DNA of 64,000 nt from Persephonella sp. (lineage in GTDB: Bacteria; Aquificota; Aquificia; Aquificales; Hydrogenothermaceae), in NCBI GenBank assembly GCA_026987075.1, contig JALSNI010000067.1, forward strand, positions 1 to 64,000, written 5' to 3'. This document shows, one piece after another, positions 58,526 through 63,998 of the stretch. The position numbers were made by a program, and so were the translations under genes. Within the stretch, counting starts at the first letter, position 1. Each line of letters begins with the position of its first letter. The notes beneath the pieces were generated by a model, which saw only the letters and a list, made by a program, of their open reading frames with translations, was not told where the DNA came from and did no database searches.

Positions 58526-58542
58526 CTGGCATGCGTTTTGCT
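58526..58542 (+). promoter_or_regulatory. sigma-54 (RpoN) -24/-12 promoter
   Basis: CTGGCATGCGTTTTGCT: GG-N10-GC with the TTGCT -12 box. Confidence 0.8.
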
Positions 58543-58567
58543 ACTTACATATGGAGGAAAAAAAGTA

Positions 58568-58774
58568 GTGAATAGGAGAATTCTAAACTTGCTTTTGGGA
58601 ACAGTAATATCAGCCTTAATAAACAACATAAAGTTATCTGAAATTAAAGACGGGGAATTAGAGGGGGTTTAGGGAGGGTTTTATCAGATAAAAATAGAAC
58701 AGGAGCAAAGCCAGAAAATAATACTCTGGGATGGGAAAAAGGTTTTTCAATTTAAGTGGAATAAAAATCACTAA
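58568..58774 (+). pseudogene. short exported peptide ORF with in-frame TAG (nonsense or recoded)
   Basis: GTG start: MNRRILNLLLGTVISALINNIKLSEIKDGELEGV*GGFYQIKIEQEQSQKIILWDGKKVFQFKWNKNH*; TAG at 58670-58672; GGAGG upstream. Confidence 0.5.
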
Positions 58775-58788
58775 GGGAGGTATAGGTT

Positions 58789-61359
58789 ATGAGACACAGA
58801 AAGAGAAAACTACTGGCAGCTGCAGTTCTCGCAGTGGCAGTATCAACACAGTCAATAGCACAACCTGAAGCAGTCTCAGATGATGCTTTAGAGGAAGTTT
58901 CTGGGCAGGGGCTTCAAGTTGTAGAAAACCACAATGCAACATTCCCAGGGGCTGGAAATCAAGGATTAGGTTCAACAAAAATGCAGAACAATAACGTTGA
59001 TTCTGTCCAGATTAATGATGAAGGTATGATTGGAAGTCAGTTAGGATTAGGTGCAGTTTATGCAAACTCAGCAGTTAACACGACAGCCAACATGTTAAGC
59101 AATTTAGGACAGGCTCAAACCTCTAAAGCAGAGATTAAACAATCTAATAAAAACTTCCAGAAAAATCACAGCAATTATGCAAAAGCTACAGATATAGCTA
59201 TTGCTGGAAACTTAAATAAGCAGACACAACTGATAAACAACGAGATAAGAAAAGGGGACATATTAGAAATAGTTAGACAGAACAACAACAACAACTCTGT
59301 TCAGCTGAATGATTCTGCCCAGGCAGAATCTTCTGGAATAATTCTTGTTAATGCTGCTGCATCTGCTGTAGGAACGGGTGTTAACATTTTTGCTACAGGG
59401 AGTTTAATAGACTCTTCAGTAACACAGTATAACGACCAAATAGCCTCTAATTTTGATAACACTGCAGAAGCAGTAGGAGGGGACAACCCTACAGCATTGG
59501 CTTCAAATGCTGAATCAAGGGGAACCCAGATAATTAACAACGGTGGGGAAATACTATCTCACGAAGACAAGTGGGAAAATGTTGTTATATATAATCAGGA
59601 CAACAATAACAACTCGCTCCAGATTAATGATAAGGCTCAATCAAACGCAAACTACATACTCCTTAAAAATCTTGCGAAAACAGCAGCTAACAATGGCTTA
59701 AACATTATATATGCTGACAATATTGAAACCTCAAAAATATCTCAGGCTAATAAACAGTTTGCATCCAATCACAGTAACATAGCAAAGGCAAAGAGTGGAA
59801 AAGGAAACGGAACTGCAATAGCTCTAAATCTGAATAAGGAAAGACAGTATATAGACAACGGTAGATATTACGATAAAGGGGATAGGACTGAAGACTCACC
59901 TAAAGCAACTATCATAGACCAGGACAACAATAATAACTCTGTTCAACTTAATCATAATGCTCAAAATGGTGTAAGAGGTTTTGTGGTAGAAAATGGAGCC
60001 AACTCGGCAATGAATACAGGCTTAAATCTCGCTTTTATTCCAGGTGACGTTGTAGATTCTACCGTAACTCAAAGAAATATTCAGGTTTCAAACAACTATA
60101 ACAACACTGCTTACGGAGAAAACATAGCTGGAGCCGGAAATGTAGAACAAGGAGCAACCCAAACAGTAGATAATTTCTGGACAGAAGTTAAAGACCAGGA
60201 TAACAATAATAACTCTGTTCAGATTAATGATGCTGCGCAAAGTAATGCTGTTGTAGGAGTTTTAGAAAATGTTGCAAACTCGGCTTCAAATATTGGAGTG
60301 AACATACTTTCAGGTAGTGACGTAGACCCATTTGTGGCAACTAATAGTTTTTCAACGTCTCTAATACAGGAAAATAAACAAACAGCTATTAATCACAGGA
60401 ATATAGCTATTTCTGAGTTTGAAGAAGGAATTGCAGTGGCTACCAACTTTAACAAGCAAACACAGGTAATCAAAAATTACACAACAGATGACCCTCTTGC
60501 TATGGCTTTGATAGAAGACCAAGACAACAATAACAACTCTGTTCAGTTAAACGATGACGCCCAATCTTCTTCTGCCAGCTTAATAACTGTAAACTCTGCG
60601 CTCTCTGGTGTAAACACAGGGATGAACATCCTGAACGCCAACAAAGTCAGCGGAACTATAACACAGAAAAACATGCAGATTGCATCTAACTTTGAAAATA
60701 TTGCGCAAAGTAATAACATAGCTTTTGCAGGTAATGCTGAAATTACAGATGGAACTTTTTATAAAACAGGTGAACCTGAAGCAGGACAGATGATAGAAAA
60801 TGTTCATGTCTGGGTAAAAGAAGGACACACTCAAAACAACAACAACAACTCTGTTCAGCTGAATGACAATGCTCAAAAAGGTTATGTGGGACTTGTTTTA
60901 GTAAATGTTGCCAATTCTGCACTTAACGTTGGAAGTAACATTATGAATGTTGATGTTCTGGCAGATGGAGAAGTTAGACAGATAAACAAACAAAGTGCAG
61001 GAAATCATAATAATGTAGCAAAAGCTAAAAACTTAGCCTTGGCATCAAACATAAACAAAGAAAAGCAATACATATACAACTGTAATTGTTTGGCAATTGA
61101 AGGAGAACAGAACAATAACATGAATTCTGTTCAGATAAACGGAAACGCTCAAAGTGATGTTGCAGCCCTCATATTAGTAAACGCTGCAAACTCTGCAGGA
61201 AATACAGCTCTAAATCTCCTTAATGTTAACGCTATAGAGGGAGGAGCTATCAGCCAGATAAATGTGAGCTCTTCAACTAACTTCTCCAATACAGCTGCTG
61301 GAAGCACGGCTATAGCAGGTAACGGCGATTTTGGAATAGACATAGGTTTTCCTTTCTAA
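58789..61359 (+). CDS. secreted Asn/Gln-rich repeat protein, candidate amyloid/fibre major subunit
   Basis: Sec signal peptide; VSDDALEEVSGQG motif; eight repeats with Q(D/N)NNNNSV(Q)(L/I)NDxAQ. Confidence 0.85.
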   Translation: MRHRKRKLLAAAVLAVAVSTQSIAQPEAVSDDALEEVSGQGLQVVENHNATFPGAGNQGLGSTKMQNNNVDSVQINDEGMIGSQLGLGAVYANSAVNTTANMLSNLGQAQTSKAEIKQSNKNFQKNHSNYAKATDIAIAGNLNKQTQLINNEIRKGDILEIVRQNNNNNSVQLNDSAQAESSGIILVNAAASAVGTGVNIFATGSLIDSSVTQYNDQIASNFDNTAEAVGGDNPTALASNAESRGTQIINNGGEILSHEDKWENVVIYNQDNNNNSLQINDKAQSNANYILLKNLAKTAANNGLNIIYADNIETSKISQANKQFASNHSNIAKAKSGKGNGTAIALNLNKERQYIDNGRYYDKGDRTEDSPKATIIDQDNNNNSVQLNHNAQNGVRGFVVENGANSAMNTGLNLAFIPGDVVDSTVTQRNIQVSNNYNNTAYGENIAGAGNVEQGATQTVDNFWTEVKDQDNNNNSVQINDAAQSNAVVGVLENVANSASNIGVNILSGSDVDPFVATNSFSTSLIQENKQTAINHRNIAISEFEEGIAVATNFNKQTQVIKNYTTDDPLAMALIEDQDNNNNSVQLNDDAQSSSASLITVNSALSGVNTGMNILNANKVSGTITQKNMQIASNFENIAQSNNIAFAGNAEITDGTFYKTGEPEAGQMIENVHVWVKEGHTQNNNNNSVQLNDNAQKGYVGLVLVNVANSALNVGSNIMNVDVLADGEVRQINKQSAGNHNNVAKAKNLALASNINKEKQYIYNCNCLAIEGEQNNNMNSVQINGNAQSDVAALILVNAANSAGNTALNLLNVNAIEGGAISQINVSSSTNFSNTAAGSTAIAGNGDFGIDIGFPF
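58984..61357 (+). repeat. eight protein-coding repeats of ~276-324 bp, alternating A/B type
   Basis: Repeat starts at 58984, 59278, 59596, 59920, 60196, 60520, 60832, 61108. Confidence 0.85.
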
Positions 61360-61368
61360 ATTTCTGGA

Positions 61369-61384
61369 GGGGGCTTAAGCCCCC
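61369..61384 (+). terminator. perfect palindrome GGGGGCTTAAGCCCCC, terminator/attenuator
   Basis: 16-bp palindrome followed by TATAAAATTTTTTAA, inside the cassette. Confidence 0.65.
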
Positions 61385-61417
61385 TATAAAATTTTTTAAC
61401 GAACGAAGGGGTCTAAT

Positions 61418-61771
61418 ATGAAAAAGATAACAATAAAAAGTATTTTCCTGATTATAATGATACTTATCTTTTCATTAAAAAGTCAGACAGTTGCAAAAGA
61501 TAAAGAGTTTGTTGTTTCCTTCGGGAATGGGGGACTTAAAAGTTTTGTCGTAAAGGACAACACATGTTTTAGCTACATAATGGGATATCCAAAGACAGAT
61601 AAAACAGTGCCCAATATTATGAACGAAGCAGTTTTATCCTCTTTGGCTGAAGCAAGAAAAAAGTTCAGTAAAGAGTACGACGGATTTATAAATGTAAGAG
61701 TTCAAATGCAGTTTGTAGATAGGAAGATGATTATCTATCAAATTTGCGGTGATTTAATTAGGAGGAAGTAG
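61418..61771 (+). CDS. small exported protein, hypothetical
   Basis: Signal peptide MKKITIKSIFLIIMILIFSLKSQTVA. Confidence 0.7.
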   Translation: MKKITIKSIFLIIMILIFSLKSQTVAKDKEFVVSFGNGGLKSFVVKDNTCFSYIMGYPKTDKTVPNIMNEAVLSSLAEARKKFSKEYDGFINVRVQMQFVDRKMIIYQICGDLIRRK

Positions 61772-61773
61772 TT

Positions 61774-62181
61774 ATGAGAAGGCTTATAGGTGCAGTTCTG
61801 TGTTCAGGAATTATTTTGAGCGGGGCTTTTGGAGAAAATATCTCTCAGGTTTCTGACAGTGAGCTTGATTCTGTTTATGCACAGGGATTTAACTTTGATA
61901 TAAATATTGACCATATGAAATCCTTTCACATTGGAGAGAACATATACAGCATAGACATTGGAGATATCAACATAAACGACGGAGGGATGCAGTTTAATCT
62001 AAACAGCAGTCTTATGCTGTCTGACAATGCCCAGTCAAACGCATTTATGCCCATAAACATCGTTGATTCAGCAGTAAATATTCCTATAAACATTGTGGTG
62101 ATAATGGGAGATAATAATGGAAGTATTAACATATCCAATTTACTCAACAGTATTAACAAATCCAATTTTATTGGACAGTAA
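61774..62181 (+). CDS. secreted single-repeat relative of the 856-aa protein, candidate minor subunit
   Basis: Signal peptide; VSDSELDSVYAQG; NLNSSLMLSDNAQSNAFMPINIVDSAVNIPINIV parallels SVQLNDNAQ..LVNAANSAxNxxxNIL. Confidence 0.75.
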   Translation: MRRLIGAVLCSGIILSGAFGENISQVSDSELDSVYAQGFNFDINIDHMKSFHIGENIYSIDIGDININDGGMQFNLNSSLMLSDNAQSNAFMPINIVDSAVNIPINIVVIMGDNNGSINISNLLNSINKSNFIGQ

Positions 62182-62207
62182 AATCTCTTCTATGGAGGCC
62201 CCTGTTC

Positions 62208-62933
62208 ATGGTTGAGGGAAAAGGTTTAAAGCTTACATTAATCCTTCTTTTCTTTTACTTTATCCCTTTCCTTTCCCTCAGCCATGTTTTTTCACAGGAG
62301 AGGAAGACAGAGATTCCTGTAATCGTAGGAAGCAGCTTCGGAAAAGTTTATCTGAGACCAAAAGTTATGCCTTACAACGAAATAAAGATGAAAAATGTAG
62401 TGAAACAGAAATTAGATTACAGCTGTGGCTCTGCAGTTGTTGCCACATTGTTTAAATATTATCTTGGACTAAATGTTACAGAGGAAAGTATCATAAACGG
62501 TCTATTTAGAGTGGGAAACGTAAAAAAAATAATAAAAAGAAAAGGATTCTCTCTCCTTGATATTAAGAAGCTTGCTGTTGCTCTTGGTTACAAGGCAGCA
62601 GGGTATAGGACTGATGTAAGAGGTCTAGCAAAAATAGGTAAACCTGCTATTGTTTCAATAACAATCGGCAACTATAAACACTTTGTTATATTCAAAGGTA
62701 TAAGAAATGGTAGGGTTTTTTTGGCTGACCCATCTGTAGGAAATACAGTTATGTCTGTAGGTGAGTTTGAAAGGGTGTGGTACAGGAATATAGCTCTCGT
62801 TATATATCCCAAAAATGAAACAGGAATATTTGGTATATCTGATGAGGAGCTTAGCTATGTAAGCTCTGATTTTGTCAGACAATCTTTATACAGTAATGGT
62901 ATTCCTGGATACAAAACATTTAGTGATTTCTAA
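62208..62933 (+). CDS. periplasmic C39-type cysteine peptidase (FapD-like)
   Basis: Signal peptide/TM; QKLDYSCGSAVVATLFKYYLG (Cys), YKHFVIFKGI (His), FLADPSVGN (Asp). Confidence 0.88.
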   Translation: MVEGKGLKLTLILLFFYFIPFLSLSHVFSQERKTEIPVIVGSSFGKVYLRPKVMPYNEIKMKNVVKQKLDYSCGSAVVATLFKYYLGLNVTEESIINGLFRVGNVKKIIKRKGFSLLDIKKLAVALGYKAAGYRTDVRGLAKIGKPAIVSITIGNYKHFVIFKGIRNGRVFLADPSVGNTVMSVGEFERVWYRNIALVIYPKNETGIFGISDEELSYVSSDFVRQSLYSNGIPGYKTFSDF

Positions 62934-62963: not shown

Positions 62964-63998
62964 ATGAGAGGAAAACTTCTTTTTTTCATTATCTTTCCTT
63001 TCTTTTCATTTCATTCCTATGCATCAGAAATTGAAAAAGCAAAAGAAATACTAAAAAAAGGAAAAACAGAAAAATATGAGGAAAGTCTAACCCAGTTTGA
63101 CAGGGGATATATCCTTTTAAAGAAAAGGCAGTTTGAAATAGAAAACAGCTTTTCATACATATACTACTCAGCAAATCAGATATATCTGAGTAGTTTTGCA
63201 ATTTTAGACCCAATATTTCTAACACTTGGAGAGTTTGGGATTGAAAATGCAAGGAGACATATATTCCAGTACAATCTGGCACTGAGATATGGAATAACAG
63301 ATTTCCTCCAGGCTGAAGTAAACATCCCTTTTATCTTCAGGCACGAAAGATATTCCGTTGTGGGAACAAATGCAGGAGAAAGAACTGCTGACGATTATGG
63401 TTTTGGAGATGTATCCATAGGTATGTCAATTCAACCTATCAAAGAGAGAAGAAGCAGACCTGCTGTAATATTTTCAGTGGCTTTTAAAACGAAAACAGGA
63501 AAAAGTCCTTTTAAAATTGACGACCCTAAAAAAGACCTTCCAACAGGAAGTGGTTATTATGCTGTAAAAGGTGGAGTAAACATATTAAAAAGTATTGACC
63601 CAGTTGTTGTCTTTGGTGGATTGGCCTATTCTTACAATATGCCTGAAGACGTAAGCAGAGTATATACACTAAACACTGGAAGTGGAACAACCTCTGCCAG
63701 ACTTGACAAGTTTTATCCTGGAGATACACTTAGCTTTAACATTGGGTTCGCATATGCCCTTTCCTACAACTTCTCCATGAACTTTCAGTTTGCTCAGGAT
63801 TATACTTTTACATCAAGAAGTAAAGTTAATGGTGTGAAATCTGACGTTAGCAACTCTACTATGAATTCTGCGACGCTGAAGATAGGAACAGGATGGGCTC
63901 TGTCAAAAAGGTCTTCACTGAACGTTTCACTTACAATGGGTCTGACAAATGATGCACCTGATTACGTTATTGAGTTTAGACTACCTGTAAGGTTTTAA
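62964..63998 (+). CDS. outer-membrane beta-barrel with short N-terminal helix (FapF-like role inferred)
   Basis: Signal peptide; EIEKAKEILKKGKTEKYEESL helix; alternating strands; C-terminal VRF. Confidence 0.75.
   Translation: MRGKLLFFIIFPFFSFHSYASEIEKAKEILKKGKTEKYEESLTQFDRGYILLKKRQFEIENSFSYIYYSANQIYLSSFAILDPIFLTLGEFGIENARRHIFQYNLALRYGITDFLQAEVNIPFIFRHERYSVVGTNAGERTADDYGFGDVSIGMSIQPIKERRSRPAVIFSVAFKTKTGKSPFKIDDPKKDLPTGSGYYAVKGGVNILKSIDPVVVFGGLAYSYNMPEDVSRVYTLNTGSGTTSARLDKFYPGDTLSFNIGFAYALSYNFSMNFQFAQDYTFTSRSKVNGVKSDVSNSTMNSATLKIGTGWALSKRSSLNVSLTMGLTNDAPDYVIEFRLPVRF

Follow-up and report, generated by a model that had tools for sequence, protein, structure and literature searches.

Here we describe a protein secretion cassette of the Fap/Fil type, encoded on the + strand at 58.5–64.0 kb of a 64,000-nucleotide stretch of DNA (contig JALSNI010000067.1; hereafter the window) from the Aquificota bacterium Persephonella sp. 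(1.66-Mb genome, G000). The cassette encodes two Sec-exported proteins of 856 and 135 residues, a stand-alone C39 cysteine peptidase and an outer-membrane barrel. We propose, with a probability of roughly 0.7, that its subunits carry a double-glycine leader behind their Sec signal peptides, and that this leader is recognised and cut by the C39 peptidase before export.

Both proteins carry the motif just after the signal peptide, about 5–10 residues from the hydrophobic core of the latter, exactly as the original prediction had it. The leader spans positions -12 to -1 at 58873–58908 (residues 29–40 of the 856-residue protein; VSDDALEEVSGQ, then G) and at 61849–61884 (residues 26–37 of the 135-residue protein; VSDSELDSVYAQ, then G). 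With an arrow marking the predicted cut, the two read V(-12)SDDAL(-7)EEV(-4)SG(-2)Q(-1)↓G and V(-12)SDSEL(-7)DSV(-4)YA(-2)Q(-1)↓G, respectively. The common pattern V-S-D-x-x-L-x-x-V-x-[GA]-Q matches the register of double-glycine leaders (hydrophobic -12, Leu -7, Val -4 and Gly or Ala -2); position -1 is Gln in the window proteins, and relatives have GG, GA or AG at -2/-1. In LahT, structure and mutagenesis place leader residues V-4, L-7 and L-12 in a hydrophobic groove, and replacing -4 or -7 by an acidic or a basic residue stops or strongly weakens cleavage (PMC6363468). The window motifs have hydrophobic residues at these three positions, in the same fixed register. True GG variants occur naturally in Aquificota (VYGG↓F/Y, ITGG↓G, VSGG↓Q and ISGG↓Q), as does RGG↓F in Fap-like loci. 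Our motif scan called for an acidic residue at -10 to -8, L or M at -7, V, I or L at -4 and G or A at -2, and made no use of -12. Among distinct hits, this unused position holds V, I, L or M in 38 of 39 from Aquificota, 62 of 65 from non-Aquificota and 7 of 7 of Fap type; the background frequency is about 0.19–0.24 (p = 1e-22 and 1e-37, both optimistic, the sequences being related). The likeness to a double-glycine leader claimed in the original prediction is thus borne out by the register, by the independent -12 position and by the natural GG variants. Because the register is canonical, cleavage is predicted at GQ↓G and AQ↓G; the cut after GQG or AQG that had been proposed lies one residue too far downstream. 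Judged on sequence, the window motif is probably a Sec-delivered double-glycine leader, which the periplasmic C39 peptidase would recognise and probably cut.

The two window proteins are homologous, the smaller one aligning with the larger across the leader and one repeat unit (hhalign 97%, E = 8e-11), so that within the window their motifs do not count as two independent events. We examined signal-peptide open reading frames on the C39 strand within 4.5 kb of the gene ('near') at 23 Aquificota and 66 non-Aquificota loci. In Aquificota the motif is present in 50 of 111 near frames versus 2 of 64 distant ones (p = 2e-10), with 5.1 ± 2.1 of the 111 expected from residue shuffles. Elsewhere it is present in 58 of 298 near frames versus 21 of 240 other frames (shuffles 12.8 ± 3.5). 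Near-C39 counts are therefore about 10 times the shuffled expectation in Aquificota and 4.5 times in the others. At least 7 of the 21 hits away from C39 are divergently transcribed C39 neighbours and look real, so the non-Aquificota contrast is understated.

The motif also follows the peptidase from genome to genome. A leader profile built from 27 leaders matches G000 in only three places at E ≤ 0.01, all within the window cassette. The leader is also conserved in orthologues, as the original prediction required. Among 136 Aquificota genomes, all 23 that encode this C39 have the tag, as do 2 of the other 113 (Fisher p = 5e-24); of the two exceptions, one is a tagged gene at a contig end (G075) and the other is a match at E = 0.007 (G092). 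Of 245 Pseudomonadales genomes, 44 have a stand-alone C39 and 201 do not; a tag-bearing DUF6160 protein is found in 31 of the former and 2 of the latter (p = 1e-26; both p-values ignore relatedness). The 13 C39-containing Pseudomonadales that lack DUF6160 include Fap-only genomes, in which FapE-type proteins carry the motif.

The peptidase (62208–62933, 241 residues) matches Pfam PF03412 with an E-value of 5.5e-21 and 75.2 bits, versus a gathering score of 22. It has its own signal peptide and neither ATP-binding cassette (ABC) nor membrane domains, in agreement with the earlier view of a free, exported C39 enzyme, not fused to an ABC exporter, in the same cassette. Residues C73, H158, D174 and Q67 are intact, and they are invariant in 58 homologues. 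The best family match is FilB (NF050078; 8.8e-48, 163.1 bits versus a cut-off of 475), and the FapD family (NF058616) matches at 4.1e-33 (114.5 bits versus 330); on these scores the enzyme is related to FapD but is not an equivalog. The core of its AlphaFold model has a predicted local distance difference test (pLDDT) above 90. Its nearest solved structures are PCAT1, ComA and the LahT–leader complex 6mpz, the last with a template modelling score of 0.81 by target and a root mean squared deviation of 2.1 Å. Double-glycine peptidases are the closest solved structures both by sequence and by fold.

In Pseudomonas, the Fap amyloid system comprises FapABCDEF, in which FapD is a C39 peptidase and FapF a trimeric barrel (PMC5557850, PMC6173800). 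Secretion depends on the active-site Cys of FapD, and a Cys-to-Ala mutant abolished secretion of FapC (PMC5557850). By mass spectrometry (MS), FapA–D are unprocessed and FapE is the only Fap component with complete N-terminal processing (PMC5557850). According to the authors of these studies, canonical C39 sequences are absent from Fap proteins and the target of FapD is unclear (PMC5557850, PMC6173800); a 2025 review names FapE, together with the part of FapF that lies in the periplasm, as supposed FapD targets (PMC12822426). In the Pseudomonas-type fap operons examined, we found the leader directly behind the FapE signal peptide (ELKDQELATLRGR↓Y, ELTDPELAQLRGR↓Y, IELKDQELATLRGR↓Y, IELKDAEMADLRGR↓Y and VPEEQLSEIRGK↓F). 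FapA of two operons (L162 and L198) has LSDGDF--[VI]-SG further in, and FapB and FapC of the operons examined are without the leader motif. The leader fits FapE as a FapD target and supplies a candidate site.

In the mechanism that we propose, Sec would export the precursors and signal peptidase I would first remove the signal peptide, leaving about 12–16 leader residues at the N terminus. The leader would form a short helix in the periplasm, with -12, -7 and -4 seated in the hydrophobic groove of C39, and the enzyme would cut after -1: at GQ↓G or AQ↓G here, and at GG↓F, GA↓G or RG[RK]↓Y elsewhere. The trimmed subunit would then leave through the FapF/FilC-type barrel and assemble, and a leader look-alike in the C-terminal tail of C39, with no cleavable -2 residue, may act as an internal plug.

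The chief rival is that the motif is a docking tag, bound by C39 or the barrel but left uncut, with C39 acting mainly as a chaperone, much as the catalytically dead C39-like domains do in type 1 exporters. It owes this place to the Gln (Arg or Lys in Fap and Fil) at -1, which is unusual for cleavage; inactive, substrate-recruiting C39-like domains do exist (PMC6363468), and FapA–D escape processing in the MS data described above. The catalytic residues, however, are invariant across the homologues, the FapD Cys-to-Ala mutation abolishes FapC secretion, and the small -2 residue and frequent GG, GA or AG at -2/-1 are conserved as for a scissile site, and we consider an uncut tag unlikely. More improbable still is that the motif has nothing to do with the peptidase, being the N-terminal cap helix of a β-solenoid or repeat fold and only convergently leader-like. 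The motif does always stand at the start of the mature part, with a strand-like GVSI next to it in Proteobacteria, and homology links the 856-residue protein to the 135-residue one, and many DUF6160 proteins to one another. But it precedes unrelated proteins (Asn/Gln-rich repeats, an 85-residue ILWDE protein, FapE and DUF6160), keeps the helical-leader register including -12, has a true GG in several lineages and is nearly absent from genomes without this C39. The last rival is chance resemblance: helices commonly show DxxLxxV, and Ala and Gly abound at signal-peptide junctions. Shuffles do give the pattern at a few per cent (5 of 111 and 13 of 298). This reading is refuted by the profile search over 136 genomes, goes against the excess over shuffles and the conserved -12, and is hardly credible.

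Several observations weigh against recognition and cutting by C39 as we propose it. Position -1 is mostly Gln, or Arg or Lys in Fap and Fil, unlike known C39 sites; known C39 enzymes cleave after Gly, Ala or Ser. The sequences from which the profile was built belong to genomes that were then searched with it. Four tag-bearing genomes (G075, G147, G203 and G092) have no detected C39, and many Marinobacter C39 loci have no adjoining tagged gene. FapA has a motif-like stretch, yet MS finds it unprocessed; the unobserved region of FapE extends to residue ~70, beyond the leader, so that the MS datum leaves the cleavage site unfixed. Operon linkage accounts for part of the co-occurrence of tag and C39, which to that extent is trivial. 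Linkage is insufficient for scattered copies, because DUF6160 genes lie mostly on contigs apart from C39, and three tagged subunits of G076 lie ~125 kb from the C39/barrel locus with the motif kept.

The look-alike in the C39 tail (ISDEELSYVSSD; 62835–62870) was recognised by its hydrophobic register and has no Gly or Ala at -2. It reads I(-12)SDEEL(-7)SYV(-4)SSD, with a helix predicted at low confidence at residues 212–218 (tail pLDDT ~42–62). The stretch is conserved as L-[KS]-[DE]-[DE]-D-L-R-[FY]-V-D in most FilB-type enzymes (for example, the C39 genes of L077–L142), and FapD tails finish in a related DAELMEFGF. FilB-type tails generally have no small -2 residue; a few Aquificota tails do have one (ISGG, VSAG). 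The tail may be a pseudo-substrate, plugging the enzyme as an intramolecular inhibitor; we treat this as a hypothesis because the tail is modelled with low confidence. Combining these elements, a Sec signal plus double-glycine leader would be the general address tag of a periplasmic route made of a free C39 and a FapF/FilC-type barrel, serving Aquificota and Gamma-, Beta- and Deltaproteobacteria, including classic Fap (FapE, FapA) and scattered DUF6160 proteins, and the pseudo-leader tail would keep the peptidase off until a tagged substrate displaces it. We regard this wider scheme as evenly balanced between true and false.

The 856-residue protein (58789–61359) comprises about eight imperfect Asn/Gln-rich units of ~105 residues each (NNNNSVQLNDxAQ ...), as seen from its composition and repeat analysis, and is the probable major fibre subunit. 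The 135-residue protein (61774–62181) is a possible minor subunit or nucleator. Neither matched any Pfam or NCBIfam family, FilA/DUF6160 included. We considered the 856-residue protein as a FapC homologue, but hhalign of the subunit alignments (A5 and A6) detected no homology (probability 3.4%), and the Asn/Gln-rich repeats are alike in kind only. No homology to FapC was detected for the 135-residue protein either. By their Asn/Gln-rich imperfect repeats, the window subunits are putative fibre or functional amyloid proteins. Between the two genes, 61418–61771 encodes a 117-residue Sec-exported protein with no leader motif and no sequence family; it is predicted (pLDDT 85.6) to adopt a DUF74/YbjQ-like fold (3qkb, E = 2e-5) and is kept across Aquificota cassettes, and it is possibly a periplasmic helper. 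The 344-residue outer-membrane barrel (62964–63998; COG4313-like) matches FapF (NF058560, 2.6e-48) and FilC (NF050079, 2.2e-39), both below the curated cut-off, and PF13557 above it, and is the presumed export pore. The conserved N terminus of FapF/FilC barrels (AREALAKQEGD), flagged in the scan as a further client, was rejected for a wrong residue at -4. Elsewhere, at ~987–999 kb of G080:C2 (L037), tandem tagged subunit genes encode three large tagged repeat proteins of ~1100 residues and several relatives of 135–160 residues within ~12 kb; a single C39 of this type was found in that genome.

Most Aquificota cassettes are preceded by a small leader protein, often with a true GG and with a conserved IILWDE near its end (class C). 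In the window this gene (58538–58774, +) is broken: the leader-profile match at 58580–58696 contains one TAG, which falls in frame exactly between leader positions -4 and -2 (...SEIKDGELEGV-stop-GGFYQIKIE...KIILWDG, with WDG replacing WDE). Close relatives (L033, L034 and L036) have an unbroken class-C gene that encodes a true GG, and the window copy is either a pseudogene in G000 or an assembly error. A class-C-like protein occupies the FapA position of the gammaproteobacterial Fap-like locus L202 (SLEDGDLASIRGR↓F ... VILWDE); the short motif (I/V)(I/L/V)LWDE is common to the Aquificota class-C proteins and the FapA-position proteins of L202 (8001–8444 and 12269–12658). A second lineage of exported stand-alone C39 occurs in Aquificota, in G068, G071, G074–G077 and G087. 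At four of its loci (L055 4095–6267; L057 5222–7255; L059 5056–7407; L062 5253–7259), the C39 is accompanied by a COG4313-like barrel and by a Sec protein whose motif is looser (LSDRELKKTKGS↓F, ISVEEMKDTNGE↓F), with Thr or similar at -4. G000 itself encodes a second C39, a 161-residue exported enzyme beside a tetratricopeptide repeat protein (L002 1468–2351; G000:C48:~13.7–14.1 kb). A neighbouring 131-residue protein ends in MSDQQIHMLAQASDKVLAGGDLL and a C-terminal membrane helix, with the GG site near its C terminus; the arrangement is PA2778/PA2779-like, and the 131-residue protein is possibly another type of C39 client.

The coupling of such a leader to fibre assembly is less novel than the original prediction implied, since periplasmic stand-alone C39 peptidases were already known (FapD, PMC5557850; FilB, NCBIfam) and the cassette is itself of Fap/Fil type. 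Fap/Fil secretion, C39 enzymes and double-glycine leaders are each established; what appears to be new is a leader that would tell what these peptidases recognise. The joining of the three through a Sec-delivered leader, FapE included, was not found in the literature searched, and no description of FilA–F biochemistry, DUF6160 function or a Sec-plus-double-glycine leader was found in that literature, which covers few subscription sources, so that an earlier description may exist. The leader names the likely FapD recognition site residue by residue and predicts client proteins, thereby suggesting what essential FapD recognises in bacterial amyloid systems. It offers a functional hypothesis for DUF6160, and clients unlinked to their peptidase become findable by sequence. 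An open question of biofilm amyloid biogenesis becomes a point-mutation experiment, and a bacteriocin-type maturation signal would have been moved behind the Sec pathway.

The window system shares features with three known ones. With the double-glycine peptidases of ABC exporters (LahT, PCAT1 and ComA; colicin V type) it has in common the C39 fold and the leader register L-12, L-7, V/I-4 and G/A-2. Unlike in the PCAT/AMS systems, the window C39 is free and exported with no ABC exporter, its substrates cross the inner membrane by Sec, and -1 is mostly Gln. The Fil 'putative pilus' system is represented in NCBIfam by FilA (NF050077), the C39 peptidase FilB (NF050078) and FilC (NF050079), and DUF6160 is PF19657. 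FilA/DUF6160 proteins start with a signal peptide followed by a window-type motif (LDDxxLSxVTGQDGVSI). However, the window barrel scores 135.9 bits versus the FilC cut-off of 630, the C39 enzyme falls below that of FilB, the cassette has no FilA/DUF6160 or FilD–F-like gene, and its substrates are Asn/Gln-rich repeats. Like Fap, the window places an exported stand-alone C39 beside a barrel of the FapF type and repeat subunits rich in Asn and Gln. All of these proteins have Sec signal peptides, and FapE and, less canonically, FapA share the leader motif of the window. By contrast, the window barrel scores 164.9 bits versus the FapF cut-off of 700, with the first 119 profile positions unmatched, and the leader stands on the main repeat protein of the window but is lacking from FapC and FapB. 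Because its C39 and barrel match FilB/FapD and FapF/FilC below the respective cut-offs, the cassette is best described as Fap/Fil-type and as a strict member of neither.

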